Shown here: piece after piece, positions 1,492 through 31,888 of the stretch | Layout of the letters: each line of letters opens with the position of its first letter | Numbering within the stretch: the stretch's first letter is position 1 | Origin: an uncultured Opitutales bacterium | GTDB lineage: Bacteria > Verrucomicrobiota > Verrucomicrobiia > Opitutales > UBA2995 | Assembly (NCBI GenBank): GCA_938075565.1 | Contig: CALJGU010000060.1 | Coordinates: 1-46,572, forward strand | Reading direction: 5' to 3' | DNA: 46,572 nucleotides | Translations under genes and position numbers: made by a program | The notes under the pieces: model-generated | Seen by the model: the letters and a program-made list of their open reading frames with translations, nothing else | Database searches by the model: none | Told to the model about the DNA's origin: nothing

Positions 1492-1926
1492 CTACAGTTC
1501 AGCCAGTTTACTCCTCAGCGCATCTGGAACCGGGGCCTTCTGCATGCGTCCTGAATTCGAGTCGAGTTCCACATGAATGATGGTTACCTCGCCTGAAGCT
1601 ACTAATTGCTCAGGCTCTCCATTGAACACATAAAAGCGATAGCGGATAGTCGTATTCTTCACTTCCTCGATGTTGAGACGAATATCCAAAACGTCTTCAA
1701 ACCGGGAGGGCTTAAAATAGCTACAAGAGATATTTAATCTCGGCCAACCATGCTGCCCTTCGTCGGATGACGTGTGTACGCTACCACCAAGGTGCCGCCA
1801 AAGCGCATGCTCGGCGGATTCCACGTAACGTAGATAATTGGCAAAATGAACGATACCAGCCATGTCGGTATCCGAAAACTCAACACGGCGTTGATGAGAG
1901 AAGTGAAAAGAGTCCGGAATATCCAT
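1492..1926 (-). CDS. Hot-dog acyl-CoA thioesterase (4HBT/YbgC-like)
   Basis: Small single-domain thioesterase of the 4-hydroxybenzoyl-CoA thioesterase/YbgC type, 144 residues. The N-terminal helix region has the family pattern DTDMAGIVHFANYLRY (about 19-34), which includes the acidic residue used for thioester hydrolysis in this family. The enzyme would release a free acid from a CoA or carrier-bound thioester in the cytoplasm. It is the last gene of a tightly packed minus-strand run and starts 7 bases after the glycosyltransferase stop. With an adenylating enzyme and an acyl-CoA-reductase-like protein in the same run, it may proofread or recycle an aromatic or fatty acyl thioester. That role is inferred from position. 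Fold assignment is strong; substrate is unknown. Confidence 0.9.
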   Translation of the reverse strand: MDIPDSFHFSHQRRVEFSDTDMAGIVHFANYLRYVESAEHALWRHLGGSVHTSSDEGQHGWPRLNISCSYFKPSRFEDVLDIRLNIEEVKNTTIRYRFYVFNGEPEQLVASGEVTIIHVELDSNSGRMQKAPVPDALRSKLAEL

Positions 1927-1933
1927 CAGTGAA

Positions 1934-3232
1934 TCAGTTGGTGGGTTGGTAAGCTCGGGTGAGCTGAAGAAATTGTTTACTCATTTGGGGCGAAGAGAAG
2001 TGTTCTTCCACTTTCTCGCGCCCTTGCTTTCGCATAGCTTCCAAGCGCTCCGGATCATTCAACAAGGAGTCCCAAGCTTCAGCAAAATCCTTCGGATTAT
2101 TGCGAGGAACGCAGGTGCCTCCACCGGTTGATTCAATGATTTCAGGAAAGGATGCCATCTCGGGTTGCACAACAGGAACACCACAAGCAATAGCCTCGAG
2201 AACATACAATCCGAAGGCTTCTGGATAGGTAACTGGGACTGAAAACAATGTAAGTGACTGCAGGAAAAAAATCTTTTCCTCTCGAGAAATATTCGGAAGC
2301 CAGTCAACATCCTCGTCTAAACCTTCTTTATGAATGCGGGCCTTAAGCTCTTTAACCAATGGTATATCACCCGCAGTCATGGCACCGGCGATCCTCAAGC
2401 GTACGCCTTCTCGCCCGATTGTCTTTCGCAACCGAATAAACCCATCGACCAGAACTTCTAATCCTTTTTCGCGACACATGCGAGCAAGGTATCCAATCGT
2501 CGGGTACTCAGGAGACTGTTCAGCAAGTTCGTAGCCTTCCATTTTGATGCCGTTATGCATCACCTCAATTGTTCCTTCTGAAAGCCCAAGACGTTCTTCC
2601 ATATAACGAGAGTAGAACCGACAGGGAGAAACCAACATATCGGCTGACGCGAGCCGCTCCCCCATCCGATTCCAGCATTGACTGCGAAAGGGTTCTGGAA
2701 GTCCGTCCAAGAAGGAATCTTCTCCTTGGAAAAAGAGAATGATCGGCACGTTAAGACGTTTCTTGATCTCATCGGCCAAGCCAGCCTGGAGGGCAGTTGA
2801 TAAGCACACGACCTCCGGCTTCCCTATTTCTTCCAGCCAAACCAGGAGCTTCTCGAATTCCTTGCGGAATCCACTTTCCTCAATCTCCAACATTTCGAGG
2901 CACATTTTTCCATGCTCACGTGCCGAGGTCATATGGCTATGCCGGGCAGCCCAACGGAGCAGACTCGTTCGATTCAACAAACGGTCGATAAAGGCAGGTG
3001 TTTTCCGAAACAGGGCCAACTTCTGCTGAAGATACATATTGATCCCACCAAAGAATATAGGCGTTTCCTTTAATCCCTCCAACGGCTCTTCATCGAGCAT
3101 GAGAGGCAAATACATCGGAAGGATTGCCACATCTTCACCTGCCTTATGTAGCTCAATAGCTAAGGCATTGTCTCGCATGCAAGCACCGCAATAGTAGCTT
3201 CCGGTGCCGGGAGTCAGAAAAGTAAGTTTCAC
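1934..3232 (-). CDS. Glycosyltransferase family 4 (GT-B fold)
   Basis: Retaining GT-B glycosyltransferase of 432 residues. The N-terminal domain opens with a beta-strand and a glycine/cysteine-rich loop (LTPGTGSYYCGACMRDN). The C-terminal domain has the RMCREKGLEVLVDGF donor-site segment and the EAFGLYVLE signature, the EX7E motif that contacts the nucleotide-sugar donor. The start is GTG at 3232; no better ATG lies upstream in frame. It is encoded between the flavoprotein (34-base gap) and the thioesterase (7-base gap), so it is likely co-transcribed with the chorismate lyase and radical SAM genes. By context it may glycosylate the small molecule made by this operon, but a cell-envelope role is equally possible. 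It has no signal peptide or membrane segment. Confidence 0.92.
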   Translation of the reverse strand: MKLTFLTPGTGSYYCGACMRDNALAIELHKAGEDVAILPMYLPLMLDEEPLEGLKETPIFFGGINMYLQQKLALFRKTPAFIDRLLNRTSLLRWAARHSHMTSAREHGKMCLEMLEIEESGFRKEFEKLLVWLEEIGKPEVVCLSTALQAGLADEIKKRLNVPIILFFQGEDSFLDGLPEPFRSQCWNRMGERLASADMLVSPCRFYSRYMEERLGLSEGTIEVMHNGIKMEGYELAEQSPEYPTIGYLARMCREKGLEVLVDGFIRLRKTIGREGVRLRIAGAMTAGDIPLVKELKARIHKEGLDEDVDWLPNISREEKIFFLQSLTLFSVPVTYPEAFGLYVLEAIACGVPVVQPEMASFPEIIESTGGGTCVPRNNPKDFAEAWDSLLNDPERLEAMRKQGREKVEEHFSSPQMSKQFLQLTRAYQPTN

Positions 3233-3266
3233 GGGTAGGATTAGATCAGGTAACCCGCGAAAGAAC

Positions 3267-4541
3267 TCACGGGGCAGTCGGCTTTAAATTTGCCCGCCCA
3301 TGAGATAAAGGTTCGGGCAATTTTGCAAAATCTTTCATCGCCTCTAATAATTCTCCGTAATCGCGGTCAACCAGATCACCAATTAAGCAATCAGTCAGTG
3401 TGCCTCGAAGGTGCATATTGGCCTTGATCAGGTCGGCAAAGCTGAATCTCTCATCGTAGAAAGCGTAAACCACCTGACGCATAACCTCAATGGATGAACA
3501 AAGCGTGTCACCATAAGCTTCGTAGTCGGTAGCCGTGATGGGTCCGTCTTTCTTCAAGGCGATGTCGGTGGCGTCTGCAGCCAGTTCAGCTGATTTGAGT
3601 GCGAGAAATACACCGGAAGAAAAGACAGGATCCAAAAACGCAAAGGCATCGCCAATCAGCACACAGCCATCGGTCGCACAATGCTCCCCACGGTAAGAGT
3701 ATTCACCCGTCACCCAATACTCACCAAATTGCTCTCCTGAGGCCAGGTGATCTTCGATCCATGGGTTGTTTTTGATCTCGCGCTCGTAAATTTCTTTTGG
3801 GTCGCGTGTATCTCGATAGAGGTAATCCCGCTCAGCAACGATGCCGGAGCTCACAATATCGTCGGCCATAGGAATATTCCAGAACCAACCCTTACCATCC
3901 AAGTAGGCAACGGTGGTGGAACCTTCGTCCAGGCCTGGATCTCGTTTGGCACCTTTGAACAATGTCCAGATGGCAATCTTGTTCAGCTCTGGATCACGCT
4001 TGCGCGAACTGGTCTTTCTCAAATACAAGGCGTCTCGCCCCGAACCATCCAGTACCACTCGAGCATTAAACTCTAACGCCTCTCCTCCTTTGGACTCAGC
4101 TTGCACACCTACGATCGCTCCAGAGTCGTCCTTGGTGAACTCGGTCACTGCTGTTTCTTCAAGTACGGTGGCTCCCTTTTCGCGGGCATTGTCCAAGAGC
4201 ATCAGGTCGAAATCGGCTCGTTTCACCTGCCAGGTAGTCGACGAAGGGTGATCGTTATGCTGAAAGAAGTAAAACGGTGTAGAGACCTTGCCGTTACGGC
4301 CCACAAACTGAACGCTGTGTTTTTCCGTCCAGGCCATTTCCTTGATCTTATCCACCAAACCCAATCGTTCGAAGGTGAAGTAGCAGAAGGGCATCAGCGA
4401 TTCTCCCACATGGTAGCGTGGGAATTTTTCCTTTTCCAGGATGAGCACATCCCAGCCCTTCTCGGCCAATAAGGCTCCGGCAGTCGATCCAGCTGGACCG
4501 CCTCCGACGATGACGGCGTCATATTGCTTTTGGTAAGTCAT
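3267..4541 (-). CDS. FAD-dependent oxidoreductase, halogenase/geranylgeranyl-reductase type
   Basis: Flavoprotein of 424 residues in the group that includes flavin-dependent halogenases and geranylgeranyl reductases. The FAD-binding GGGPAG loop is at 13-18, VGESLMP at 45-51, the WFWNIP segment at 219-224 matches the WxWxIP pattern seen in halogenases, and GDAFAFLDPVFSSGV (297-311) is the second FAD/substrate motif. Members hydroxylate, halogenate or reduce small molecules or carrier-bound substrates. I cannot confirm the catalytic Lys of true halogenases by eye, so halogenation is only one option. The gene sits 25 bases downstream of the chorismate lyase, which suggests it acts on a chorismate-derived aromatic. 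Family is secure; reaction is not. Confidence 0.88.
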   Translation of the reverse strand: MTYQKQYDAVIVGGGPAGSTAGALLAEKGWDVLILEKEKFPRYHVGESLMPFCYFTFERLGLVDKIKEMAWTEKHSVQFVGRNGKVSTPFYFFQHNDHPSSTTWQVKRADFDLMLLDNAREKGATVLEETAVTEFTKDDSGAIVGVQAESKGGEALEFNARVVLDGSGRDALYLRKTSSRKRDPELNKIAIWTLFKGAKRDPGLDEGSTTVAYLDGKGWFWNIPMADDIVSSGIVAERDYLYRDTRDPKEIYEREIKNNPWIEDHLASGEQFGEYWVTGEYSYRGEHCATDGCVLIGDAFAFLDPVFSSGVFLALKSAELAADATDIALKKDGPITATDYEAYGDTLCSSIEVMRQVVYAFYDERFSFADLIKANMHLRGTLTDCLIGDLVDRDYGELLEAMKDFAKLPEPLSHGRANLKPTAP

Positions 4542-4566
4542 TTTGAGAAATTGTTATATGGGAAAA

Positions 4567-5124
4567 TTAAATGTAATTTTCCTCCGGCAGGATTTCCATT
4601 ATCCAAGCTAGAGTCTGTCCATTGGTTTTCGAAAGTTGGTTGAACCTTCCATAAAAGGTATATTTTTCCAAGTCTTTGGAGAGAGTAGGAGCTATATATC
4701 CAGCAGAGATGGCAAAAAAGCAAACCGGAGCACTCTGAAATTCGACTTTGAACTTATGCAAAAGTCCTCCAAACGGTTCTTGGTCGGCTTCGATCTCTTC
4801 ACGGTGTTCCTGATCGGAGCTATCTAAGACGATGGCAATCACACCATACTCTAAGACTGTGTCCGCTTTTTTAGTCTGAAGAAATACTTCACGCAGGTAC
4901 ACATCTCCACGCTCGAGACTCTGAATCTTGTCGATGTAGATATCGCTCTTGTAGTAGCGCGCCAGGGTAGAGGTCATATCCTCATCATGAAACATCAGCT
5001 GCCTAGCAGGCTCGGGCAATTCCTCCCCGGGTAAAATCCGGAATGAAGCAGCCGGAATCGAGCAGTCTTCTACAATATACCGGCGCAAAGATTCCGGCAT
5101 GCCATTCACAATCACTTCTTCCAT
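4567..5124 (-). CDS. UbiC-like chorismate lyase family protein
   Basis: 185-residue protein I place in the chorismate lyase (UbiC) superfamily from several aligned landmarks: PARQLMFHDEDMTSTLARYY (39-58), which resembles the family's A-R-x-L-x-x-H-x-x-M-T-x-x-L segment; VYLREV with Arg78; LEYGVIAIVL (91-100); and the C-terminal YGRFNQL...WIMEILP with Gly159-Arg160 and Glu177. The last set corresponds to the G-R...E-x-x-L-P end of UbiC, whose Glu is catalytic. UbiC cleaves chorismate to 4-hydroxybenzoate and pyruvate. Most Verrucomicrobiota are expected to use menaquinone, so a ubiquinone role is unlikely and a specialised product is more plausible. It lies between the radical SAM gene (39-base gap) and the flavoprotein gene. 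Identity is divergent, so the exact product (4- or 3-hydroxybenzoate) is open. Confidence 0.72.
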   Translation of the reverse strand: MEEVIVNGMPESLRRYIVEDCSIPAASFRILPGEELPEPARQLMFHDEDMTSTLARYYKSDIYIDKIQSLERGDVYLREVFLQTKKADTVLEYGVIAIVLDSSDQEHREEIEADQEPFGGLLHKFKVEFQSAPVCFFAISAGYIAPTLSKDLEKYTFYGRFNQLSKTNGQTLAWIMEILPEENYI

Positions 5125-5163
5125 AGGGGCGGGGGTGATTAAAGCTAGGGAAAGAAAGGATGC

Positions 5164-6498: not shown

Positions 6499-6539
6499 AA
6501 TTAAATTGCTTAGGGTTGGGTTATTATAACCGCTGAAAG

Positions 6540-7730
6540 TCAGGACTCTTTTAAGGCAAAGACGGTTCCATCTTCACCTCCGATGATGAGTGCGCCGTAT
6601 CCGTAGGCCGGACTGGCAATGAACCCTTCACCGAGGTCGAGCCTCCAGATTTCCTCTCCACTGTCGAGATTTAAGGCATAGAGGCGACCGTCTCCTGATC
6701 CAAAGATAAGTCCATCATCAAAGACAATAGGAGCACTCTCTATTCGTGCTCCGGTTCTAAATTTCCAGACAGATTCGCCGCTTTCCTGATTGATCGCATG
6801 CAAATGCTTATCATTGGAGCCGATAAATAGCATGTCATCGCTCACACCGGGCGCATTGTTGAAAGGTAAGTTTCGGTCCTCATAGACCCAGGCAATCATG
6901 CCAAGGTCGACATCGAATGCCACGACCTGGTTTGCGTAGTTTCCTGAGTAAGCCATGTGCTTATAAGTCGCGATGGAACTCACGATCTGGGAATCATTCG
7001 GGATCTTATGAACCAGGCTACCGTCTGCTAAACCGATCACGTGCAATTGTGCATCACAGCCACCAAACACCACCCACTGGTTATCTACGACCGCAGGCGA
7101 GCCGTTGATGTAATCTTCCGTTTCGTAGGACCATATGAGCGAGCCATCTTCCGTGCTCAGACAACGGGTCGTGCCATCATAGCCATTCATCAATACCCAC
7201 TGTCCTTCCCCTTCGGGGTTATCAACCACAACAGGTGCAGCACTGATTTTGTCGTCTGCTCCAAACTTCCACACTTCTTCACCCGTCTCCAGGCTCAAGG
7301 CGTAGAGCTGTCCATCGTTAGAGGGAAGAAAAACCAGATCGCCACTAATCGCCGGTGCAGCGGTGACAGCGTCTTCGGTTTCGAACTTCCAAAGTTCTTC
7401 TCCCGTTTCCAAATCGAGTTTAAAAAATAGTCCATCCTCGGTGCCGACAAAAACATGTTCGCCCAGAATGGCAGCTTCGGCTGAGATCATTTGGCCTGCG
7501 GAAAAAGTCCATGCGATTTCCATCTGCCCGGGTAGACTTGCTGGAATCTGTCCTGAAAGATGGGGTCCTCCGCGAGTCATCGACCAGGAGGTTTGCGGAA
7601 TAGGAGGTGCGACTTCCTCGACTACCGTTTCTTCTACAGTCGTCTCAGATGACTTGGAACAACCTGCTGTCCAAATTATCGCTGAGACAAGTGAAAGACT
7701 GATAACATATTTGGAAAGATGAACCTTCAT
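6540..7730 (-). CDS. PQQ-like beta-propeller lipoprotein
   Basis: 396-residue exported propeller protein. The signal peptide ends at a lipobox-like TAGC with Cys24, so the mature protein is probably a lipoprotein. It consists of repeated blades of the type AAPAISGDLVF...LYALSLETGEEVWKF, the PQQ-enzyme repeat of BamB and quinoprotein dehydrogenases. At least seven such blades can be followed. No dehydrogenase active-site features (PQQ-binding disulfide, metal ligands) are evident, so a scaffold or binding role is more likely than catalysis. The gene lies 15 bases downstream of the alcohol dehydrogenase and 41 bases upstream of the radical SAM gene, inside the long operon. Its link to the enzymes around it is unexplained. 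Confidence 0.88.
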   Translation of the reverse strand: MKVHLSKYVISLSLVSAIIWTAGCSKSSETTVEETVVEEVAPPIPQTSWSMTRGGPHLSGQIPASLPGQMEIAWTFSAGQMISAEAAILGEHVFVGTEDGLFFKLDLETGEELWKFETEDAVTAAPAISGDLVFLPSNDGQLYALSLETGEEVWKFGADDKISAAPVVVDNPEGEGQWVLMNGYDGTTRCLSTEDGSLIWSYETEDYINGSPAVVDNQWVVFGGCDAQLHVIGLADGSLVHKIPNDSQIVSSIATYKHMAYSGNYANQVVAFDVDLGMIAWVYEDRNLPFNNAPGVSDDMLFIGSNDKHLHAINQESGESVWKFRTGARIESAPIVFDDGLIFGSGDGRLYALNLDSGEEIWRLDLGEGFIASPAYGYGALIIGGEDGTVFALKES

Positions 7731-7745
7731 CAGCTCGTCCTTTTT

Positions 7746-8894
7746 TTATGCCGGTTCTGGCAACGCCAGAGCTGCCCGGTACAATTCAACAAAATCACTC
7801 AGCTCAAGTGGCCGGGGGTTAAAGTTTCCTGTCCACTGCTGTTTGGCTTCGGTGGCCAATTGCTGGATCTCTTCCTCATCGGCGCTGAATGCTATTTGCT
7901 CCATACGTCCCGTTAGATCGGTAACCCAGTCTATGAGAGATTTGTCACTCACATCCAGCTCACTCAAAATAGAAGTGTAGCGACTATAAATACACGAGGC
8001 GTCCGGATCTTGATCGTTAAACCGCATTACATGTGGCAACATCATCGCTACAGCACGACCATGAATAATATCGTGGCGAGCGGTTAGTGGATTGGCCGAA
8101 GCATGGGCCCCTCCCAACATGCTGTTTTCAATCGCGAGGCCACTCAATGCAGCTCCCAAAAGTATATGCCCCCGGTCGTCACCTTGCACACTATGGTCTA
8201 CAATATCATCGATCGCCCGAACAATATGCCGAAAAGCAGCTTCGGAATACATGGATGATAGTTCGGTCCGCTTGGTAGAAACTGCCGCTTCCAAAGCATG
8301 AGCCAAGGCATCAATGCCGGTTTGCACCGCAACTGATCGCGGTTGGCTATCTGTAATGTCAGGATCAAGAATGGCTACTCGAGCCAGTGCCTTGGGATCT
8401 CCACAGGCCATCTTTTCATGGCTCTCTTCGCGACTCACCAAAGCGTAGGACTGACACTCACTTCCGGTGCCAGCCGTGGTAGGAATAGCAATAAAGGGCA
8501 ACATCTTTTTCGACGCCTTTCCATAACCGTGGTAATCGCTCATGCGCCCACCATTGGTTAGTAGAAAATTACACGCCTTGGCAGTATCGATACTGCTGCC
8601 GCCTCCCAGTGCAAGGAAACCATCAAACTCGATTTCCTTGGCAAATGCGCAACAGGCAGCCGCATCATTCTCGGTCGGATTTTCGCTCACATCATCGTAG
8701 ACATGAACCGGAATACCTTCCCCTTCAAGCAAGGCTCGGGTGGACTCAACATGGCCGGCCTTCACAATGCCTTTGTCCGTCACCAGCAAAACAGAAGTAA
8801 TACCCAACTCTTTGATTGAGTTCGGCAATTCCTTCATGACTCCATTTCCAAAAACGAGTTTGGGCGAGGGTCTGGACTCGAAAGGATCGACCAT
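7746..8894 (-). CDS. Iron-containing alcohol dehydrogenase
   Basis: Group III (iron-type) alcohol dehydrogenase of 382 residues, full family length. NAD(P)-binding GGGSSID is at 97-103 and TTAGTGSE at 139-146. The metal ligands appear intact: Asp195 and His199 in IDALAHALE, His264 in GGAHASANPL, and His278 in DIIHG. It would interconvert an aldehyde and a primary alcohol in the cytoplasm. Its start codon lies one base after the stop of the aldehyde-dehydrogenase-like gene, indicating tight translational coupling and a shared aldehyde intermediate. With the adenylating enzyme upstream, the three could reduce a carboxylic acid to an alcohol, or run in reverse for alcohol oxidation. Substrate unknown. 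Confidence 0.95.
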   Translation of the reverse strand: MVDPFESRPSPKLVFGNGVMKELPNSIKELGITSVLLVTDKGIVKAGHVESTRALLEGEGIPVHVYDDVSENPTENDAAACCAFAKEIEFDGFLALGGGSSIDTAKACNFLLTNGGRMSDYHGYGKASKKMLPFIAIPTTAGTGSECQSYALVSREESHEKMACGDPKALARVAILDPDITDSQPRSVAVQTGIDALAHALEAAVSTKRTELSSMYSEAAFRHIVRAIDDIVDHSVQGDDRGHILLGAALSGLAIENSMLGGAHASANPLTARHDIIHGRAVAMMLPHVMRFNDQDPDASCIYSRYTSILSELDVSDKSLIDWVTDLTGRMEQIAFSADEEEIQQLATEAKQQWTGNFNPRPLELSDFVELYRAALALPEPA

Positions 8895-8895
8895 G

Positions 8896-10338
8896 TTATT
8901 TTTCCAACGTCACCAAGTCTCCTTGTAACGCTCGTCTTCGATAGAGGAATTCAAAAATATTACCTTCGTGAGGTTGCTCCCATTGAACACGGTTCGTCGG
9001 ATAAGGTCCGATATTCAGACGCTCAATGTTCGTGCTGGTCATCAAGTCGACCGCCCACTCCTGATTGGAGGTGAAGGCTGAAACAACCAAGGTCTCGCCA
9101 ATAGTGTCGAGCATCTCGTTCTGAGGAACTTCAACAATGCTGGCAAACGGGAACATAAACTCGGTGTTCGCGAGAGGATGATCCTTATCATCGCAAAGAA
9201 TCAAGGTTGGGCTCAGGAATGTCTGTCCCCACTTCTCAACCAAACGTGGTCCTTCGCGATACTGCGCGGTAAGATCAATCGCACCCGGCGTTTTCAAATG
9301 GTCTTCGATCATCTCATCGATCGCCTTGGCGAAATCAGGATTCGAAAATCCACAAACGGTTGCGTCAGGATCGGTACGTTCCAGTGGCACGATGGCAGCC
9401 AGCTTCTTGGCAATCGCATGGGCGATTTCATCGCGGTTTTTCGGCACAAGCACACCGGAAGCGTTGATACAGCTGCGCCCACCATTGGCAGAGATGGACT
9501 GAACAATCGTGTCTACATCCGCTTCCCAATTGTCGGCAAAGTCGTCACCGATCAGCACTTTACTACGTCCTGAACCGTGCACCTGAATGCTGCGGTAAGG
9601 TGCATACTGCTTCACTGTTTTATCAGAACCAAAAGCTACACCACGACCTGTTTCAAAGAGTAAGGTATTACCTCCTTCGTGAGTCGTTGGATAAAACCCA
9701 AAGGCTTCAGCAGGGAAGCCAGCAGTGATCATCGCCTGAATAATTCTGAAGGGCGTAAAAGGATCTTCACGGCCAGGTTTCAGTATCACCGGAATTTTCA
9801 AGACCGGTGCAGGCAACCAAAGAGAATTTACTCCGGGTGAGTTGCTTGGCAGTAAAACGCCGAGGCTCTTGGTTTGCGGGAAGAAATTTACATCCAGTCC
9901 GTTCTGGTTAACAAAACCATCATCGAACAGGGAAAGCGGCATGCTTCGAGTAAGTCCTGAAAGGATGGCCCGAATATTAGCCATGGCCTCATAGACCTTA
10001 CCCATGTTCAAACGACAAAGGCTGTGCGGTAAGCCCGTTGAAAGGGATAGCGCAGCGGCGTAGTCCTCAGGACTCTGCATTTCATCACCAGCTCCCCATG
10101 GTAAATCACCATTGAGGAAAAGATCAGCGGCTTTTTCACAGTAGTCAGCCAAGGTCTCGCAGGGGATCGCTTGCAGTGCAGCAACCGATCTTTCGATATC
10201 GAGTAGGTCTCTCCGGATAATGCCCGGATTGGCAACGCTCACTTGGATTGGCTTACCGTCGCTGTCGAGTTCGGTCGTATCTAAGCTTTTATAAGTCTGC
10301 CCAAGGCGAAGAACTGGAATGTGAATTTGATCACTCAT
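8896..10338 (-). CDS. Aldehyde dehydrogenase superfamily protein, possibly acyl-CoA reductase
   Basis: 480-residue member of the aldehyde dehydrogenase superfamily. The nucleophile is Cys290 in SANGGRSCINASG. The motif that in hydrolytic enzymes contains the general-base Glu (ELGGK) is here HGSGRSK (254-260) with no Glu. CoA-acylating aldehyde dehydrogenases likewise lack that Glu, so a thioester-to-aldehyde reduction (or the reverse) is plausible. The cofactor-binding region contains LLPSNSPGVNSLW (162-174). It is encoded 18 bases after the PaaK/LuxE-like gene and one base before the iron alcohol dehydrogenase, which fits a LuxE/LuxC-like activation and reduction order. The family is certain; the CoA-dependent reductase assignment is inference. 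Confidence 0.88.
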   Translation of the reverse strand: MSDQIHIPVLRLGQTYKSLDTTELDSDGKPIQVSVANPGIIRRDLLDIERSVAALQAIPCETLADYCEKAADLFLNGDLPWGAGDEMQSPEDYAAALSLSTGLPHSLCRLNMGKVYEAMANIRAILSGLTRSMPLSLFDDGFVNQNGLDVNFFPQTKSLGVLLPSNSPGVNSLWLPAPVLKIPVILKPGREDPFTPFRIIQAMITAGFPAEAFGFYPTTHEGGNTLLFETGRGVAFGSDKTVKQYAPYRSIQVHGSGRSKVLIGDDFADNWEADVDTIVQSISANGGRSCINASGVLVPKNRDEIAHAIAKKLAAIVPLERTDPDATVCGFSNPDFAKAIDEMIEDHLKTPGAIDLTAQYREGPRLVEKWGQTFLSPTLILCDDKDHPLANTEFMFPFASIVEVPQNEMLDTIGETLVVSAFTSNQEWAVDLMTSTNIERLNIGPYPTNRVQWEQPHEGNIFEFLYRRRALQGDLVTLEK

Positions 10339-10356
10339 GACGGTATGCCTCTTAAA

Positions 10357-11430
10357 TTAATATACTCCTTCAATAACTGTTTTCGAACCGGACTGGAATG
10401 GGCGAACATCCCCTACTCCATCCCAAGAGAATTCATCGCAAGGACGGCGACGAATTGCTTCATCTCTTTCGAGAAACCGTGGCACAAAAAATTCCTTAGT
10501 GAGAGTCGTAAGTTCAACTCTTCCGTACTCATCGTAATCCACAAGTTCGTCAGCGTTGTCCGGATTAACAACCCGAAGCACGGCACGCGGCTCTGGAGCG
10601 TAATACGTCAGACTGTAATTGTCTTCAGGAACCAGCTTCTTACTGATGGCCAATCCCATGAGCGTGTTGCCATAGGTCGGGGCGAAGTTGATCTGACCTT
10701 CCAATACCTCTTCGTTAATGAAGCGGACGTATTGTGGAGTCATAGTCGTTCCACCGGCAAATACACCTTTCAGTCCAGCCTTCACGAGAGACATACGCTC
10801 TGCCAAGCTTTCGAGCAACTTCGGCGTTGTAAACATACAGCTTATATTCCGGTGACGTAGAATCGCTGAAGCCTGGTCGATCACGTGCTCCTGGTAGGCC
10901 TTCGCCATAGGAATCTCACCCATTTTGATCAGGCGTTTTACCCAACGAGGATCGAGATCGATAAAGTAACAAGAGCCACCACGGTGAGCAGCCAAGTGCT
11001 CGATGGCCAAACGAAGACGGCGAGGACCCGTTGGGCCAACCATCAACCAGTTCGTTCCCTTAGGGAAAAAGTCATCACCATAGTGATTACTAAATTCTTC
11101 GTAATCGTGTTTGTAGTCATCCCACCCAATTCGTTGCTTGGGCATGCCAGTCGTTCCACCGGTTTCAAATACATTGTAGGGACGTCCTTCATACGCTTTA
11201 GGAATAAAACGCTCGGGCATTTCTTTGCGCAGCGTTTCATCGTCGAAGTGATCAAACTTCAGGATGTCCGCAAACGACTGGACTTCCTCCAAAGGATTCC
11301 AATCGGCCTTGCTTGCCCAATCGAGCCAGTAGTCACAACCGGTTTCAGGCGAGAAGTGCCATTTTATAATTTCGCGAACGCGAGCATCCCGTGCCTCATT
11401 CGCCTCTTCAATGGTTAGCGTTGAACTCAT
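10357..11430 (-). CDS. Short PaaK/LuxE-like adenylate-forming enzyme
   Basis: Acyl-adenylate-forming enzyme of the phenylacetate-CoA ligase/coenzyme F390 synthetase group, 357 residues. The nucleotide-binding loop is ETGGTTGMPK (89-98). Later core motifs include TYGNTLMGLA and GRVELTTLTKEFFVPRFLERDEA, and the chain stops soon after GVGDVRPF. Typical PaaK proteins are some 70-90 residues longer and end in a mobile AMP-binding C-terminal domain that seems to be absent here. LuxE-type acyl-protein synthetases have similar short lengths. It would activate a carboxylic acid with ATP and perhaps hand it to CoA or directly to the next enzyme. It is encoded 3 bases after the symporter stop and 18 bases before the aldehyde dehydrogenase. 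An aromatic substrate is suggested by the chorismate lyase in the same run. Confidence 0.82.
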   Translation of the reverse strand: MSSTLTIEEANEARDARVREIIKWHFSPETGCDYWLDWASKADWNPLEEVQSFADILKFDHFDDETLRKEMPERFIPKAYEGRPYNVFETGGTTGMPKQRIGWDDYKHDYEEFSNHYGDDFFPKGTNWLMVGPTGPRRLRLAIEHLAAHRGGSCYFIDLDPRWVKRLIKMGEIPMAKAYQEHVIDQASAILRHRNISCMFTTPKLLESLAERMSLVKAGLKGVFAGGTTMTPQYVRFINEEVLEGQINFAPTYGNTLMGLAISKKLVPEDNYSLTYYAPEPRAVLRVVNPDNADELVDYDEYGRVELTTLTKEFFVPRFLERDEAIRRRPCDEFSWDGVGDVRPFQSGSKTVIEGVY

Positions 11431-11433
11431 GAA

Positions 11434-12945
11434 TTATTTTGTAGGAAAGAATTTTTGTAGGGTTTCATCAGAAGGAGCTTTGGTCACCAGCGAAACGACC
11501 ACCAACGTGATGGCACATGCAGCGAACATAGCAGCTACCGGCATCATTCCTCCGAAGAGGTAGGAACCATTTGCACCGTAACCGGAGGCCTTGAAAAGCA
11601 TGAACCAGCAAATTGCGGTAGCAATAATTGCGGCATAAGCACCGGCCTTGGTTACCCGCTTCCAGTAAATGGTCGCAAACACAATGGGGAACAGACTGGC
11701 GTATCCACTGAAGCACCACACCCCGAGTGTGAATACCGACCGTGGTTCGGCCAGGGTGAACAAGAAAGTGATAATTACGATGGCGGTAATGAATCCACGT
11801 GCCAACCAGACCATCTGTCCATCGGAGAAACGATCTTTACCAAAACCGTGCGCGACGATGTCGCGGGTAAACATGGTTCCAACGGATACAAATTGAGAAT
11901 CCAGGGACGACATGATGGCGGCCAAAACTCCGGCACCCACCAGACCACCAATGATTGGTGTCGATAGTTTACCAACCATGATTCCCAGAACCGCATTGGA
12001 AGAAGCTGCACCAGGAACAATCGGTGTATCGGTGCCAGGCATCAGAGCTCCTGTTGCCCAATAACCGATCAGAATACATGGAATCCAAGTAACCATGATA
12101 CTGATAGGGTGAGCAATCAGCATGAACTTAAAGTTCTTAGAATTTTTGGAGGTCAGGAAATTTTGAAACAAGTGCGGAAACATGCCCACCGAAAGTGGAA
12201 TAAACATGTAAGACAGAAATTGAAGTTCTGTGATATTGCCGGAGCGAACCGCTTTCGCTTCGTTAGCCATTTCAGATGCGGCTGCAAATCCACCCAGTTT
12301 ACTCGAGATCAATGTGAAGGCTAGTACCCCCATGATCATAAAGACGATAGTCTGGAATGTATTGGCCCAGGCAGCGGAACGAACTCCGCCCATGAAGATG
12401 TAGGAAAGCACAACGCCACAAATGACCAAGGATGTTAACCAAGGTGGAATCGCTCCACCGGTCGATGCAAAGACATCAGGAAATGCTCCACGAGTTACAC
12501 CGCCAATAAAAGATCCGGCGCCCAGTAGTCCGACCAAGAGATATGGAATGATGAGTCCGACCAGGATGGGAAATAATAGATAACCGATCCCCTTACTTTC
12601 GAAACGATCACGGAAAAGCTCGATCTGTGTCATGTAGCCATTCCGTTTTCCGAGTGACCACAGCCTTAGACCAATCAGGAAAAACACAGCGGAGTGAACC
12701 AGAGCTGAGGACGATGCGATTTTACCAAAGGTAGCAACGCCAACGCGGTAAGATTCCCCCGTGCTTCCGACCATGGCGAATGCCGTCATGGTGGTTCCGA
12801 AAACGGACATGAAGAGGACGAAAGGCCCAATCGAACGACTGGCGACAAAGAAGTCAGCCGAGCCTCCTCTAAAAAATTTCCTGGAAACAACGCCTAGCCC
12901 AATGAGCATGGCGAGGTAGATACAAATGATTACAACCTGAGTCAT
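11434..12945 (-). CDS. Sodium:solute symporter (SSS family)
   Basis: Integral membrane transporter of 503 residues with about 13 hydrophobic helices, starting with VVIICIYLAMLIGLGVVSRKFF. The segment FMSVFGTTMTAFAMVGSTGESYRVG resembles the sodium-site helix region of the SSS family. The start overlaps the stop of the small upstream membrane protein by one base (TAATG), so the two are translationally coupled. Such pairs are known for monocarboxylate carriers of this family, so an organic acid is a reasonable substrate guess. The next gene, the adenylating enzyme, begins 3 bases after its stop, which suggests the transported acid may feed that enzyme. The direction and substrate are inference. 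Confidence 0.93.
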   Translation of the reverse strand: MTQVVIICIYLAMLIGLGVVSRKFFRGGSADFFVASRSIGPFVLFMSVFGTTMTAFAMVGSTGESYRVGVATFGKIASSSALVHSAVFFLIGLRLWSLGKRNGYMTQIELFRDRFESKGIGYLLFPILVGLIIPYLLVGLLGAGSFIGGVTRGAFPDVFASTGGAIPPWLTSLVICGVVLSYIFMGGVRSAAWANTFQTIVFMIMGVLAFTLISSKLGGFAAASEMANEAKAVRSGNITELQFLSYMFIPLSVGMFPHLFQNFLTSKNSKNFKFMLIAHPISIMVTWIPCILIGYWATGALMPGTDTPIVPGAASSNAVLGIMVGKLSTPIIGGLVGAGVLAAIMSSLDSQFVSVGTMFTRDIVAHGFGKDRFSDGQMVWLARGFITAIVIITFLFTLAEPRSVFTLGVWCFSGYASLFPIVFATIYWKRVTKAGAYAAIIATAICWFMLFKASGYGANGSYLFGGMMPVAAMFAACAITLVVVSLVTKAPSDETLQKFFPTK

Positions 12946-13184
12946 TACTCTGCCCCTCCTTCACTCGCGCTGTCAGAATCAGGTTCGCCTTCCAGGCCTT
13001 TGGGCCAGGCAAACTTGATCACCATGAGCCAACCAATGGCCGCTGCACAAACGAAGCCCATATGGTAAGCTAAGGTTGCGGGCAAAAAGCCGAATACGAG
13101 GGAGGCGTTATCTTTCAGCCAGAAGTCTTGATGCAATATGGCAAGCAAGACCAAGTAGCCGAATACGAGCGTTTTCTTGGACAT
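12945..13184 (-). CDS. Small two-helix membrane protein paired with symporter (DUF3311-like)
   Basis: 79-residue protein with two transmembrane segments (about 6-18 with the following loop LHQDFWLKDNASLVFGFLP, and about 41-59) and an acidic cytoplasmic tail (EGEPDSDSASEGGAE). The loop Leu-His-Gln-Asp-Phe-Trp followed by FGFLPATLAYH resembles small proteins of the DUF3311 type that precede sodium:solute symporters. The stop codon TAA shares its last base with the symporter ATG. It is probably an accessory subunit needed for assembly or activity of the symporter, as for similar small partners of SSS carriers. The family name is from memory of such pairs and is less certain than the pairing itself. 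Confidence 0.75.
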   Translation of the reverse strand: MSKKTLVFGYLVLLAILHQDFWLKDNASLVFGFLPATLAYHMGFVCAAAIGWLMVIKFAWPKGLEGEPDSDSASEGGAE

Positions 13185-13225
13185 GGAGTAACTGGGGTGA
13201 CGGTTAGAGACGGAGAGAAATCACC

Positions 13226-14755
13226 TTACTGGCCGATCGCATACATGTGAGTTTGAGTCGTCACAAAGAGCGTATCGTTTGCCACAATCGGGCTGCAGTA
13301 AATGGGTGTGTAAAAGTCAGCCAAAGCGATCTCTTCTTTTTCACGACTTGCTTTCAGCATAACTAGCTCACCATCTTCGTTACCGATAACAACCATGCCA
13401 TCTGTAACCAAGGTAGAAGACCAGATACGACTGTTCGTTTCGTGAACCCAGAGGTGCTCGCCGGTTTCAGCATCGAGGCAATGGATATCGCCATCGTATT
13501 CCGCTTGGAAGATGAGTCCGTCAGCCACGCTGGCGGTTGAGATAGAACGACCGATGCCCTCGTAGGTCCAAATCGCTTTCCCAGAGATATCACCCGTCAT
13601 GCTGGGATCGATACAGCTAAGACGACCTACGCCATCACCGTGCTCAGGGTCCTGTCCTATAATCGCATAAGCCTTGTTGTTGGCAATGATAGTAGTTGCG
13701 ATAATCTCACTGGCACCTTCATAGGTAGCATACTTGATCGGCTCGCCATCTTTCTCGCGATATTCGCGAAGATTAGCGTCATAACGGAAGGTTTCTTTTA
13801 GAATAGGAAATCCATCTTCGTGCATCACCGGATCGAGGTCATAGCCGTAGGCCCAACCATCTCCACCACCCCAAACAACCATGGGTTTTCCATTGATGTC
13901 TCCGATAGCAGGCGTACTCCAACTTGCGTGTAATACTCTTTCGGATACTCCAGAAACTTCTTCACCAAGAAGCTCGCCGGTATTCTTGTCCATAACGACC
14001 AAGGCTGGTGAATATGGAGAAGGGATATTTTTGTGTGACCAGTCTACTCCATTCGAAGTAGCAGCATAAATTTTGTCACCGTAGATGAGCGGAGAACAAC
14101 TGGAAACGTTGTGAGGAAATACACCGAGCTCTTCACGGGCATCGACCACCCAAAGGATGTCTCCATCCGTTTCTGTTACCTCAACCGTTTCACCGGGCTT
14201 GGATGAGAAGTAAGTAGCTTCATCCTGGAATTCACCATCGTTGCCGTTGGCCATGCCTTCGACGTCGAAGCAAAGTGCTTCTCCACGATTCGTAATGATC
14301 CAGCCACGATCACCTTCGATCGCTGGGGAAGAACAAAGTCCAACAAACTCCCAGTCACTGACCTTACCAGCACCGAGTTTTGGAATCAAAAGCTGCCACA
14401 GAAATTCGCCGGTTTTTTCGTCAAAGCACATCAGCACTCCACGGTCACCCTTTTCGGCTTCGTTACGAGGAGACTCGTTATTGGTTCCAACATAGATTCT
14501 GCCTCCAGCAGCCACAGGCGTGCCGTAGGTTTGTGAACCAAGCTTGGCAACCCACTTGACGCCCTTGGTTGTTTCCATGTTGATCTCCTCACTCTTGGGC
14601 AGGTAGTCCCCGCTCTCGATTTCAGTTGGAATGCCGCTGGCTTCACCAACCATGTTGCGATCCGCGGATCCGCCCCAAGTCGGCCAGTCGGCCGCTTGAA
14701 CCGACCATGCGGCACAGAGAGAAGTAATAAGTAAAATAGATTTCTTAAGATTCAT
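13226..14755 (-). CDS. Secreted PQQ-like beta-propeller protein
   Basis: 509-residue exported protein with a cleavable signal peptide (LKKSILLITSLCAAWSVQA-ADWPTWGG). The mature start DWPTWGGSADRN is the tryptophan-rich opening common to verrucomicrobial and planctomycete propellers. Blades follow the pattern TPAIGDINGKPMVVW...GYDLDP and STASVADGLIFQAEYDGDIHCLDAETGEHLW. There are no heme-binding CxxCH motifs. It begins 11 bases after the stop of the larger PQQ-like gene upstream and ends 41 bases before the small symporter partner, so it is likely the second gene of the operon. Function unknown: periplasmic binding, scaffold or an unrecognised quinoprotein are possible. Confidence 0.9.
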   Translation of the reverse strand: MNLKKSILLITSLCAAWSVQAADWPTWGGSADRNMVGEASGIPTEIESGDYLPKSEEINMETTKGVKWVAKLGSQTYGTPVAAGGRIYVGTNNESPRNEAEKGDRGVLMCFDEKTGEFLWQLLIPKLGAGKVSDWEFVGLCSSPAIEGDRGWIITNRGEALCFDVEGMANGNDGEFQDEATYFSSKPGETVEVTETDGDILWVVDAREELGVFPHNVSSCSPLIYGDKIYAATSNGVDWSHKNIPSPYSPALVVMDKNTGELLGEEVSGVSERVLHASWSTPAIGDINGKPMVVWGGGDGWAYGYDLDPVMHEDGFPILKETFRYDANLREYREKDGEPIKYATYEGASEIIATTIIANNKAYAIIGQDPEHGDGVGRLSCIDPSMTGDISGKAIWTYEGIGRSISTASVADGLIFQAEYDGDIHCLDAETGEHLWVHETNSRIWSSTLVTDGMVVIGNEDGELVMLKASREKEEIALADFYTPIYCSPIVANDTLFVTTQTHMYAIGQ

Positions 14756-14766
14756 GACTGGGTTTC

Positions 14767-17019
14767 TTAGTTATTAGAAGAAATGGAAATGTTATCGATG
14801 AAGACGCGCTTCTGACTTTGCGGTGCAAATGCAAAGAGACCAGGCGCGCCTTGTTTATGTACTTTATCTTGTTTGGACTCGATGGTCCAGGCATCCGGTT
14901 CTGGTTGCCCTTTTTCCCAGACCTTGGCGCGAACAACTCCACTGCCATCTGCGTTGGTGTCTACCCGAGTTTTCAGATGATACCAGGCATTGGCCTTGAT
15001 AGGAAATTTAACGGAGTCTTTCACACGTTCGTGGTTACTGGAAATTTCGAGTAAGCGTTGGTTTCCGGACAGCGCGATCAGGTAACGCTGATTGACCAAT
15101 CCAACCGTGGACATGATCCGGCGATTGCCGTCAGTCATCACATCGGCCTCAATGGTGTAGCTCTTCATATCGGTCTTACCGATGAAGTTCATACTGCGCT
15201 GCCATAGGAGGTTCTCCAATCGGTAGGCGGCTACCTTGTTGCCATCACGCTCGAGGATGTGCCATTTAGGTCCTGCTCCGAGCCAAGTGCCAGGAGGAGG
15301 AGATACCGCAGCACCCGTTTTGTCCTTTAGAAAGAGTTTGGTTTCTTCGAAATCCGAAGTGTAACCATTGCCCGCAACGACTCGTCCACGACTCACACTG
15401 GTCATGCCATCGACAGTGGCTTGGATGTAGCCTCCAGTCAAATTGCCCTGACCGGAACGGCTGAGGCGATTGCCAGAAAGAGCTGCGTCGACCTCAGAAG
15501 GTCTGGGAGCGCTGGGTGGATTCCATTTGGCGAAGCTTGCTTGGTCGGTGATGTCTTTCACACGACGTCCACCAGCATCCAGTCCGTATACCTTAAACTC
15601 TACTTCATCGTCAGATCCCAGAGCGAACTCCGCAGGGACCAATTGAATCTGGGCAATCTTTCCAGCTTTCTTGGAGGACGCATTTTTGTATTTCACCTTT
15701 TTGAGCTTCTTGTCGCCGAAGCAGTGAAGTCCTTCTTTGGTGAATACATACACGCGGTTATTATAAATAGCAGGTGCTCCCATGCAGTTCGCTCCCATCT
15801 CATCTGAGTGAAGCATCTCTGCAGCGTCGCCACCATCCTTGAGGATGTGAGTGATTCCATCGAGCATTGGCACGTAGAATTTCCCATCGGCGTAGGTAGG
15901 TGATGCATGCAATTGGTCAGGAGCCAGTTTTTGCGACCAAAGCGTTTCACCGGTTTTGATATCTACGGCAAGAAGACTTCCAGTAGCGATGGTGGTATAA
16001 ACACGATCACCGACCAATGTGGGTGAACTGGTAAATGCGACGTGTTCGTCGTTGCGCCAGACTTCTGATTCAGCGCCTAAAATAAGAGGTAGATTGTCAG
16101 GATACTTGGAAGGAATCTTTAAGCGAACCAGGCGACCCTTGTCGGTAGTATCGATATTTTCCTTACCATGAACCGCGATGAGCCCATCCTTACCGACTAG
16201 AACTACACCGGAGTTAACTCCACCCGTTGCGAGCTGGAAGCGCCAGACAGATTCACCCGTGCGGGCATTCACGCAAACTACATTTCCACAACCTGTGCCG
16301 GCGTAGAAAACGCGTTGATTACCCAGGTCAGCAAAGACCGGGGTAGAAAAAGAGCTGTCAATCGGTCCAACACCTGGAGTGCTGTGCCAGAGAAGCTCAC
16401 CGGTGATCTTGTCGAAGCCGTAGAAACGATTCCTAGCCGGTCCGTTGGTTGACCAGTTGGCAGTGATGCAGTGAATGACCACGACATCGCCATCGATTCC
16501 TGGAGCACCTGTCCGACCATTAGGAAAAGTCAGGCGACCAAATTCTTCCATCATGGAATGCTCCCAGAGCATTTCTCCGTCAGGAGAGAAAGCCATGACG
16601 TGTCCGTTTGTCGATTCGACGTAGACATTCCCTGTCTCAGCATCAACTGCTGGGGCCCCTACCGCATAACGGTTATAAACAATATCAGAAATGTAATCAG
16701 CAAATCGATGCTCCCAGATCTTTTCGCCAGACTCGGCATCGAGACAGAGGAGAGTTTCTTCTACTAAGCCCGTTTCGCCGTAGAAGCCAAAGGCGTAGAT
16801 GCGTCCGTCGGCGGCAACCGGAGTTCCAGCTCCGCGCACCGGATAAGTCCAACGGTGCTCGCTGCCTTCCAGATTCAAAGAATCAGGAAGAGAAACCTTG
16901 GCCGGTGAATTCCCGTTTTGGTCGGGACCACGCCAGTTGAGCCAGCCACTGGCAGCAGACAACTCAGCCACACTGAAGAAGACTACCAGAAGAAGTGAAA
17001 GGAATCGGATCGATTTCAT
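14767..17019 (-). CDS. Secreted PQQ-like propeller with C-terminal jelly-roll-like domain
   Basis: 750-residue exported protein. A signal peptide (IRFLSLLLVVFFSVAELSAASG) precedes WLNWRGPDQNGNSP, the typical opening of this propeller group. Residues about 25-440 form PQQ-type blades (for example TPVAADGRIYAFGFYGE and LLAVDIKTGETLWSQKL). After a linker of about 100 residues with an Ig-like feel (ELDPA-type strands, DAGGRRVKDITDQASFAKW), the last 200 residues contain WHILERDGNKVAAYRLENLLWQ-like strands and a final FIDNISISS strand. These suggest a concanavalin/laminin-G-like sugar-binding fold, as in DUF1080 relatives. It is the first gene after the 134-base gap holding CCTTACC repeats, so it probably heads the long operon. 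Binding of a glycan or glycoconjugate is a guess. Confidence 0.88.
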   Translation of the reverse strand: MKSIRFLSLLLVVFFSVAELSAASGWLNWRGPDQNGNSPAKVSLPDSLNLEGSEHRWTYPVRGAGTPVAADGRIYAFGFYGETGLVEETLLCLDAESGEKIWEHRFADYISDIVYNRYAVGAPAVDAETGNVYVESTNGHVMAFSPDGEMLWEHSMMEEFGRLTFPNGRTGAPGIDGDVVVIHCITANWSTNGPARNRFYGFDKITGELLWHSTPGVGPIDSSFSTPVFADLGNQRVFYAGTGCGNVVCVNARTGESVWRFQLATGGVNSGVVLVGKDGLIAVHGKENIDTTDKGRLVRLKIPSKYPDNLPLILGAESEVWRNDEHVAFTSSPTLVGDRVYTTIATGSLLAVDIKTGETLWSQKLAPDQLHASPTYADGKFYVPMLDGITHILKDGGDAAEMLHSDEMGANCMGAPAIYNNRVYVFTKEGLHCFGDKKLKKVKYKNASSKKAGKIAQIQLVPAEFALGSDDEVEFKVYGLDAGGRRVKDITDQASFAKWNPPSAPRPSEVDAALSGNRLSRSGQGNLTGGYIQATVDGMTSVSRGRVVAGNGYTSDFEETKLFLKDKTGAAVSPPPGTWLGAGPKWHILERDGNKVAAYRLENLLWQRSMNFIGKTDMKSYTIEADVMTDGNRRIMSTVGLVNQRYLIALSGNQRLLEISSNHERVKDSVKFPIKANAWYHLKTRVDTNADGSGVVRAKVWEKGQPEPDAWTIESKQDKVHKQGAPGLFAFAPQSQKRVFIDNISISSNN

Positions 17020-19250: not shown

Positions 19251-19443
19251 ATTTTGGTGGTGTAGCTTTAAGTAACGTCCCGTCCTCCAAAAAAGTAACG
19301 AGATTCTAGTTAAAAAGTAATTTTCTAGGGCTGTTTAAAAATGAAGGTTACAGATAAAGTAGGATTTTGTCGGCACTCCAAGATTGAAATAACGCAAAAT
19401 GCACAATATTTTCATGAAGCTACAATACGGCATTTATTCCACC
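19251..19443. promoter_or_regulatory. Divergent promoter region with three AAGTAA direct repeats
   Basis: The region between the divergently transcribed receptor and propeller genes contains AAGTAA at 19270-19275, 19293-19298 and 19315-19320, the first two extended to AAGTAACG. The spacing is 23 and 22 bases, about two helical turns, so the copies lie on one face of the DNA. This suggests a repeated operator or activator site. The sequence around it is A/T-rich, as expected of promoters. No clear -35/-10 pair is called. Confidence 0.3.
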
Positions 19444-20718: not shown

Positions 20719-20741
20719 TCTCATTTTCTAATTTCCGTGTT

Positions 20742-22007: not shown

Positions 22008-22067
22008 TTTGCCTTCAATTACAACTAGCTTCAACGTTCAATTTAGAAAGCTTCTAGCCCAATCACT

Positions 22068-22871: not shown

Positions 22872-22883
22872 TCACTGAATTAA

Positions 22884-22965: not shown

Positions 22966-22976
22966 CTTTTAAAGCT

Positions 22977-30346: not shown

Positions 30347-30349
30347 TCT

Positions 30350-31806: not shown

Positions 31807-31888
31807 TACTACCTACGAGCAATCAAACTTAGAACCCAACTCGACGAAGCATCGAAATCCATTCTTAATTCAAACCATCTCAGGAGAA

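Follow-up and report, generated by a model that had tools for sequence, protein, structure and literature searches.

Known aryl-acid systems and the layout of the run

For grixazone, Streptomyces griseus employs GriC/GriD, an adenylating protein with a separate reductase, on a hydroxybenzoic acid substrate (PMC10179220), and ehpF and ehpG stand side by side in a Proteus phenazine operon (PMC11278526). An engineered route to gastrodin joins chorismate pyruvate-lyase, carboxylic acid reductase, alcohol dehydrogenase and glucosyltransferase (PMC7690157). The 13-gene run described here lies in a window of 46,572 nucleotides (the whole stretch of DNA that was analysed) from an uncultured Opitutales bacterium. 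It has the two-protein layout of GriC/GriD, to which it is likened by role, while its sequence likeness is to a Streptomyces pair of an EhpF homologue and an aldehyde dehydrogenase (ALDH); grixazone differs in starting from 3,4-AHBA, which is not chorismate-made. EhpF, of the griseoluteic-acid-type phenazines, is the nearest solved relative of the adenylating enzyme of the run, but EhpF/EhpG sits inside a phenazine (phz) operon whereas none of the 13 proteins of the run matched a phz gene family. The gastrodin route follows the same enzyme-class sequence on 4-hydroxybenzoate as is proposed for the run; it is artificial, relies on a one-protein reductase and is without a radical SAM enzyme, a halogenase-type enzyme or secreted propellers.

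Mycofactocin systems combine a radical SAM enzyme, a glycosyltransferase and an alcohol dehydrogenase, a parallel that had been drawn in a sequence-only reading of this DNA. That parallel is not supported, as the radical SAM enzyme of the run scores as HemN/HutW type and the largest internal gap, 41 bp, is too short to accommodate a precursor gene inside the run, which disfavors a RiPP of the mycofactocin or PQQ type. Aryl polyene and flexirubin clusters share with the run an aryl-acid start, a thioesterase and a halogenase-type flavoenzyme; however, Pfam/NCBIfam-type family searches matched no ketosynthase among the 13 proteins, as had been claimed, and no carrier protein, and an aryl polyene cluster was therefore rejected. 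Literature searches for the gene combination returned no paper on the set among the matches listed, in keeping with the earlier remark that no described system with it was known, and no described product for the set was found.

Between window coordinates 17019 and 1492 all 13 genes are encoded on the minus strand (Table 1), which confirms the run as first observed. Successive spacings are 11, 41, -1, 3, 18, 1, 15, 41, 39, 25, 34, and 7 bp, so that gaps are indeed 41 bases or less. Several overlapping gene pairs, sharing one to three bases, had previously been reported; with the ATG/GTG starts used here only one was found, the DUF3311 and sodium:solute symporter (SSF) genes, which share 1 bp. 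The family calls made from the sequence alone were correct for the three BamB-like propellers, SSF, DUF3311 (just under cut-off), the EhpF-like enzyme, the ALDH superfamily, the iron-containing alcohol dehydrogenase (Fe-ADH), the HemN-type radical SAM enzyme, the Trp-halogenase-type flavoprotein, the GT4 glycosyltransferase and the 4HBT thioesterase; the interpretation as a whole is partly supported.

Table 1. Genes of the run and its immediate flanks, listed against the direction of numbering (window coordinates).
Feature	Position	Strand	Match
TonB-dependent receptor, 134 bp upstream of run	17154..19250	-	Pfam Plug 4e-8
PQQ1, secreted BamB-like beta-propeller, 750 aa, opens block A	14767..17019	-	PQQ_2 1e-29
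PQQ2, secreted propeller of 8 blades, polar positions conserved	13226..14755	-	
DUF3311 small membrane protein, presumed SSF symporter partner	12945..13184	-	DUF3311 1.6e-6, 28.5 bits vs cut-off 30
Sodium:solute symporter (SSF)	11434..12945	-	SSF 1.5e-32
EhpF-like adenylating enzyme, proposed half of two-protein aryl-carboxylate reductase	10357..11430	-	PDB EhpF 5e-48 (phmmer)
Acyl-reductase-type ALDH, proposed reductase half	8896..10338	-	Aldedh 1.9e-15
Iron-containing alcohol dehydrogenase, proposed aldehyde-to-alcohol step	7746..8894	-	Fe-ADH 1.7e-49
PQQ3, BamB-like propeller, probable lipoprotein, opens block B	6540..7730	-	ACSF4-type propeller 1.9e-53
HemN-type radical SAM, C63-x3-C67-x2-C70	5164..6498	-	Radical_SAM 6e-20, HemN_C 8e-7
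Chorismate-lyase-fold protein, proposed 4-hydroxybenzoate source	4567..5124	-	
Halogenase-type FAD enzyme, K74 + GWFWxIP invariant in 12	3267..4541	-	Trp_halogenase 1e-28
GT4-type glycosyltransferase, E338x7E346 conserved	1934..3232	-	Glycos_transf_1 3e-31
YbgC/4HBT-type thioesterase, last gene of run	1492..1926	-	4HBT_2 4e-14; TIGR00051 above cut-off
Gfo/Idh/MocA oxidoreductase, 146-bp gap after run	38..1345	-	GFO_IDH_MocA 6e-17

The run is probably incomplete, since the contig ends 37 bp past the Gfo/Idh/MocA gene and conserved genes continue in a sister genome (L046), where that gene is followed by two more and then by conserved EamA-like, PaaK-like and ABC genes. No PaaK-like gene was found in the window's own assembly. 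On the other flank, a TonB receptor occupies the same place in six loci (L047, L049, L050, L060, L061, and L064).

Proposed aryl-acid reduction and uptake genes, and the propellers

In a phmmer search against the PDB, the adenylating enzyme was matched best by EhpF, over residues 17-357; it is a small EhpF-like ANL protein of ~360 aa, as befits one half of a two-protein reductase. It matches a Streptomyces homologue at 36%, the ALDH of the run matches the ALDH paired with a Streptomyces EhpF homologue at 29% over 468 aa, and this Streptomyces pair sits beside DAHP synthase and pabB; one EhpF homologue is annotated "arylcarboxylate reductase." In the EhpF-like alignment, 145 of 357 positions are conserved in at least 97% of 35 rows. 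The alignment of the ALDH shows Cys290 conserved and H254-G-x-G standing in place of the ELGG motif, which we take to hold the Glu general base of oxidizing ALDHs, just as we take the conserved Cys to be catalytic; an ALDH that keeps its Cys and has the Glu motif replaced has the features of a reductase. The ALDH gene adjoins the EhpF-like gene in all 30 named loci that have the two, and lies elsewhere in some genomes; it was found in every one of 12 genomes searched, among them ten picked since their EhpF locus showed none. Taken together, these results suggest that the EhpF-like protein and the ALDH are likely an aryl-acid reductase. Their match to known or annotated two-protein aryl-carboxylate reductases also favors the original idea of a ketosynthase-free set built around a reduced, tailored aromatic. 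The adjoining Fe-ADH conserves D195, H199, H264, and H278 in at least 97% of 29 rows.

The genes around this pair bear on a different reading, that of uptake with detoxification or salvage, whereby imported environmental aromatic acids would be converted to alcohols, glycosylated and expelled, with the lyase accessory or in another role. The block has a symporter, and in 5 loci the symporter slot before EhpF is occupied by an MFS protein; the single example that was typed has a sub-threshold likeness to the aromatic acid/H+ symport family. In 13 loci there is an upstream MarR gene in divergent orientation (one of them typed), the TonB receptor is alongside in some, and three carriers have the lyase degenerate or lost, all of which would suit such a role. 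Set against this, 81 of the 384 genomes have the lyase and every one of these carries the radical SAM enzyme, while the radical SAM enzyme, halogenase-type enzyme and CoA ligase exceed what detoxification needs and catabolism seldom uses ATP-costly acid reduction; we regard this reading as unlikely. In four loci (L079, L082, L083, and L132) block A is followed by EPSP synthase and a gene resembling, by eye, prephenate dehydrogenase. These genes, like the MFS protein and the MarR gene, also favor the pathway proposed below.

The propellers keep their positions, with PQQ1 adjoining PQQ2 in 22 of 22 named loci carrying both and PQQ3, which has a lipobox-like ...WTAGC read by eye in its sequence, lying upstream of the radical SAM gene in 66 of 67. 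A structure search with the predicted structure of PQQ2 matched only the common propeller class, its best natural matches being YxaL and BamB, neither of which is known to bind a cofactor. Its conserved residues are H215, N216, D238, W239, H241, Q368, D369, E371, and H372. The co-conservation of three secreted propellers, together with the conserved polar set of PQQ2, a fold that also matches quinoprotein dehydrogenases and tetrathionate hydrolase, and the Fe-ADH and glycosyltransferase in the set, could indicate a small exported aromatic, a redox cofactor or quinone-like compound, that is derived from chorismate and works in the manner of PQQ or mycofactocin. This would be a new verrucomicrobial redox carrier made in the cytoplasm by the lyase, CoA ligase, radical SAM enzyme, flavoenzyme and aryl-acid reductase, then exported and bound by secreted propellers as apo-enzymes. 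Tight co-inheritance across scattered loci would be more in line with such a cofactor than with a typical secondary metabolite, and among 28 genomes, including 25 carriers, no PqqE scored above cut-off, a search in which no control genome did so either. The nearest natural structures of PQQ2 argue the other way, a cofactor pocket in it is putative and none of the 13 genes encodes a haem or electron-transfer partner, so that we consider a cofactor a long shot.

Candidate ring-modifying and terminal genes

The radical SAM enzyme scores as HemN/HutW type (HutW 193 bits, below cut-off), matches NocN at 3e-23 and is 58-82% identical to 16 relatives; C63, C67, and C70 are invariant in the 17 sequences, and the protein combines a CX3CX2C motif with a HemN-like architecture, by which it is possibly a class C methylase. 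A HemN-like enzyme is reported to methylate an anthraquinone. A role in heme biosynthesis was rejected because its scores lie far below the HemN and HemW cut-offs and a separate, above-cut-off HemW is present in 8 of 8 genomes.

The call of a chorismate lyase is compatible with the predicted structure, which has the chorismate lyase/UTRA fold, but no Pfam or NCBIfam match was obtained, and a profile search against the PDB reached 2nwi at only E 0.27. R78 and G119 are invariant in 19 aligned sequences and Glu177 is kept in 17 (it is Lys in L046, and the L047 row stops short). The active-site positions of UbiC are R76 and E155, their match to the lyase residues being judged by eye. From its fold the protein is predicted, with reasonable confidence, to make a hydroxybenzoate. 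Because the lyase is degenerate in two carriers (G004 and G275) and missing in one (G325), strict dependence on chorismate is disfavored and the earlier notion of chorismate as obligatory source was not sustained.

FADH2-dependent halogenases have a catalytic Lys and a WxWxIP motif, and the corresponding K74, W219, W221, I223, and P224 of the flavoenzyme are invariant in 12 sequences. It matches PDB halogenases at 1e-55 to 3e-44, and nearly as well 3nix, which is named only "Flavoprotein/dehydrogenase." A homologue was present in 10 of 10 genomes searched, eight of which are without one beside the lyase.

Clustering of neighbors gave MarR, MFS, EamA-like, PaaK-like, ABC and FtsX families, with shikimate-pathway genes in four loci; only part of the clusters were typed, and no ketosynthase was among the typed ones. 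The PaaK-like protein also matches FlxY (132 bits, below cut-off). A modified aryl building block for cell-envelope lipid or polysaccharide, made via 4-hydroxybenzoyl-CoA and delivered by the BamB-like and LolD-like parts, would account for the PaaK-like ligase and 4HBT thioesterase, the weakly EamA-like membrane protein, the propeller lipoprotein, and the LolD-like ATPase and FtsX-type permease found near the system in some genomes. Yet neither acyltransferase nor ketosynthase was found among the 13 genes or the typed neighbor families, and a simple aroyl ester needs no two dedicated reductive steps, which makes an envelope role improbable.

Distribution across the class and the proposed pathway

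Parts of the gene order recur in 80 named contigs, mostly titled Verrucomicrobiota. Among 384 genomes of the host's class, taken from matching identifiers and sizes to be one shared set for the four marker searches, we counted 79 carriers of the EhpF-like enzyme, 82 of the radical SAM enzyme (leaving out a 44% identity paralogue in G232 and ignoring second weak copies of 43-46% in G179 and G416), 81 of the chorismate-lyase-like protein and 82 of the PaaK-like ligase (leaving out ten genomes with matches weaker than 1e-90, at 31-35% identity). These four markers represent three separable blocks, and all four are present in 77 genomes and any of them in 83. Thus roughly one in five sampled genomes (79 to 82 of 384 by marker) carries the set. 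In a sample of the phylum, the radical SAM enzyme was found in 12 of 288 genomes, two of which do not belong to the class (identities of 50 and 55%).

The EhpF-like and radical SAM genes lie within 20 kb of each other in only 15 of the 79 EhpF genomes and not in the other 64, in 60 of which they are on different contigs of drafts; the two are nevertheless co-present in 79 of 79. The outcome that had been named as refuting the operon, genes scattered in homologous genomes, is thus literally observed, but the partners co-occur throughout. A purely local operon was rejected on these counts, and scattering with constant co-presence strengthens the case for one pathway but makes a single operon less credible as the usual arrangement. 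That pairwise order is kept in distant genomes and the markers co-occur across 384 genomes places the run beyond chance, and the gene set is almost certainly one system and not one neighborhood. A set whose members are spread over as many as three places but are jointly present or absent bears the signature of a conserved pathway, and sharp markers make the system testable in any cultured carrier.

Reading each reaction from its enzyme family, and building on the observed gene set, order, co-occurrence, two predicted folds and conserved residues, we propose, at about even confidence, that the run makes up the greater part of a conserved pathway by which Verrucomicrobia handle a hydroxybenzoic acid. 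The lyase-fold enzyme would turn chorismate into 4-hydroxybenzoate, or the SSF/MFS symporter would import an aromatic acid. Loading of the acid on CoA and its release would fall to the PaaK-like ligase, which is not on this contig, and to the 4HBT thioesterase; meanwhile the ring may be modified by the flavoenzyme and by the radical SAM enzyme, which could be a C-methylase. The EhpF-like enzyme would then adenylate the aryl acid for reduction by the ALDH to the aldehyde, which the Fe-ADH would convert to a benzyl-type alcohol. The glycosyltransferase would glycosylate this alcohol, LolD-type ABC/FtsX genes, in genomes having them, would export the product, and the secreted propellers, once beyond the cytoplasm, might bind it or work on it; glycosylation and export of the product are predicted tentatively. 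Such a pathway would be nature's parallel to the engineered hydroxybenzyl-alcohol-glycoside route, would place GriC/GriD-type aryl-acid reductases as well as HemN-type radical SAM enzymes in a new setting, and may point to what some of the PQQ-like propellers secreted by Verrucomicrobia do.

Scanning the whole window for Rfam families and for tRNAs gave no match. An acyltransferase-carrier fragment lies in the window at 41935-43686, 25 kb from the run.

Conservation of the run and its surroundings

The gene set is real and conserved, and combines enzymes of known kinds in a new way, for which literature searches found no description. The thirteen minus-strand genes (table) lie in a draft genome of 4.6 Mb (367 contigs, 91% complete); their largest gap is 41 bp, as the sequence-only reading had stated, but the several overlaps of one to three bases that it described reduce to a single one of 1 bp. 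PQQ3 has a lipobox, read by eye, and the 185-aa chorismate-lyase-like protein (lyase for short) has no Pfam match.

Features of the window and of degenerate relatives of the lyase gene
Feature	Position	Strand	Details
Run, genes 1-4	within 17019-1492	-	propellers PQQ1 and PQQ2, DUF3311, SSF symporter
Run, genes 5-7	within 17019-1492	-	EhpF-like adenylating enzyme, ALDH-type reductase, iron alcohol dehydrogenase (Fe-ADH)
Run, genes 8-10	within 17019-1492	-	propeller PQQ3, HemN-type radical SAM, 185-aa chorismate-lyase-like protein
Run, genes 11-13	within 17019-1492	-	halogenase-type flavoenzyme, GT4 glycosyltransferase (GT), 4HBT thioesterase
TonB receptor	134 bp upstream of run
Gfo/Idh gene	146 bp after run		ends 37 bp short of contig end
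Divergent genes	19399-25664	+	two further PQQ-like propellers, 3-keto-disaccharide hydrolase domain protein, GDSL lipase, second SSF symporter
Gene group	28672-34063		sulfatase, PLP-dependent enzyme, MoaF-like protein, allantoicase
583-aa protein	41935-43686	+	acyltransferase, carrier-protein and incomplete luciferase-like monooxygenase domain (profile 1-105 of 314)
Degenerate lyase-like gene	L051:9283-9821		other genes of block present
Degenerate lyase-like gene	L068:4624-5085		other genes of block present

In 40 stretches from genomes of the class the order recurs partly or fully, a few having EhpF alone or EhpF with ALDH. Named contigs were scanned by radical SAM alignment; among the best 80 of 575, titles were of Verrucomicrobiota type in 75, the others being Acidobacteria (1), Phycisphaera (1), Actinomycetota (1) and plain "bacterium" (2). 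Scored in these 80 wherever both members were present, adjacency in the same order held for PQQ1-PQQ2 (22/22), EhpF-ALDH (30/30), PQQ3-radical SAM (66/67), radical SAM-lyase (76/76), lyase-flavoenzyme (57/57) and GT-thioesterase (42/42), the lowest ratio being that of ALDH-FeADH (30/32). EhpF and radical SAM shared a stretch in 30 of the 80 and the set was complete in nine, with contig ends cutting many stretches. In six loci (L115, L122, L128, L142, L148, L151) block B, the part that PQQ3 begins, holds an extra propeller gene behind the flavoenzyme or lyase gene, with GT next in the first four.

In other genomes the thioesterase is followed, mostly on the same strand, by a membrane protein with a weak EamA match, a PaaK-like ligase, a LolD-like ABC ATPase and an 1100-aa FtsX-type permease; in the sister genome Gfo/Idh and two more genes precede EamA-like, PaaK-like and ABC ATPase genes. 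The PaaK-like gene had no match in the window's own assembly, a 91% complete draft, which we attribute to the contig ending there. Around PaaK genes, the EamA-like gene adjoins PaaK in 17 of 20 stretches and the ABC-FtsX pair is clear in one of 20. The symporter slot before EhpF is filled by MFS in five loci; the single MFS protein typed is similar to the aromatic acid/H+ family, with a score below cut-off. MarR genes stand divergently in 13 loci (one typed). Four genomes have EPSP synthase (typed in L082), a prephenate-dehydrogenase-like gene (by eye) and others after block A, the part headed by PQQ1, about 14 kb or less from EhpF (L079, L082, L083, L132).

Co-occurrence of dispersed loci

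Across 384 genomes of the class, EhpF-like genes were found in 79, lyase in 81, radical SAM in 83 (82 after removal of one weak paralogue) and PaaK-like genes in 92 (82 counted at 1e-90 or better); 83 genomes had at least one marker. The exceptions are G121, G355 and G429 (no EhpF), G325 (no lyase), G000 (no PaaK) and G133 (PaaK alone). Co-occurrence of EhpF and radical SAM gave a Fisher value of 3e-79 over the 384 genomes, inflated by shared ancestry.

The scattering of genes in homologous genomes, which the sequence-only reading had named as refuting its thirteen-gene operon, does occur, EhpF and radical SAM lying within 20 kb in only 15 of 79 genomes, farther apart on one contig in four and on separate contigs in 60, some of which may be assembly breaks; yet the markers co-occur, with all four in 77 of the 384. 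In the four carriers assembled as a single contig, the two genes are together in G275 and G299, and 3.0 Mb (G315) and 0.9 Mb (G342) apart. All 12 genomes searched for ALDH have it, although ten had been picked because it was unseen at the EhpF locus, and all 10 searched for a flavoenzyme homologue have one, eight of them with none beside the lyase. Scattered loci that retain these genes leave linkage no explanation for the co-occurrence, of which shared function is the likelier cause.

Predicted chemistry

Most likely the system turns a hydroxybenzoic acid into an aromatic that is reduced, modified and probably glycosylated. A less likely reading is that the product serves as a cofactor. In the window's ALDH the catalytic Cys is retained and the Glu motif of oxidising ALDHs is missing; all four metal ligands are present in the Fe-ADH. 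The adenylating enzyme's closest solved protein is EhpF (5e-48), and a homologue from Streptomyces carries the annotation "arylcarboxylate reductase"; on another Streptomyces plasmid a homologue (36%) precedes an ALDH that shares 29% identity with the window's over 468 residues, and DAHP synthase and pabB lie beside this pair. In a Proteus phenazine operon ehpF adjoins ehpG (PMC11278526), and GriC with GriD turns 3-amino-4-hydroxybenzoate into its aldehyde (PMC10179220). The run shares its enzyme chain with the engineered gastrodin route (PMC7690157), which leads from a lyase through an aryl-acid reductase and an alcohol dehydrogenase to a glycosyltransferase.

In G004 and G275 the lyase gene is interrupted by in-frame stops, and G325 has lost it, neighbouring genes being present in all three; if the acid is indeed the substrate, these genomes must therefore obtain it from another source. 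The L069 block has no lyase-like gene.

The flavoenzyme has both the halogenase Lys and WxWxIP motifs. The HemN/HutW-like radical SAM is separate from the genome's HemW; a HemN-like enzyme methylates an anthraquinone (PMC9714029). Halogenation, methylation, glycosylation and export are guesses from family membership.

Propellers and other window features

PQQ2 is confidently predicted to form an 8-bladed propeller of the BamB/YxaL class, and its many conserved polar positions suggest a putative binding or catalytic role. PqqE was above cut-off in none of 28 genomes (25 carriers), in a search run without a positive control. L047, L049 and L050 retain the first propeller of the divergent genes next to the cluster. 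No link to the run is evident for the sulfatase-allantoicase group, and the 583-aa protein is an isolated polyketide-type fragment.
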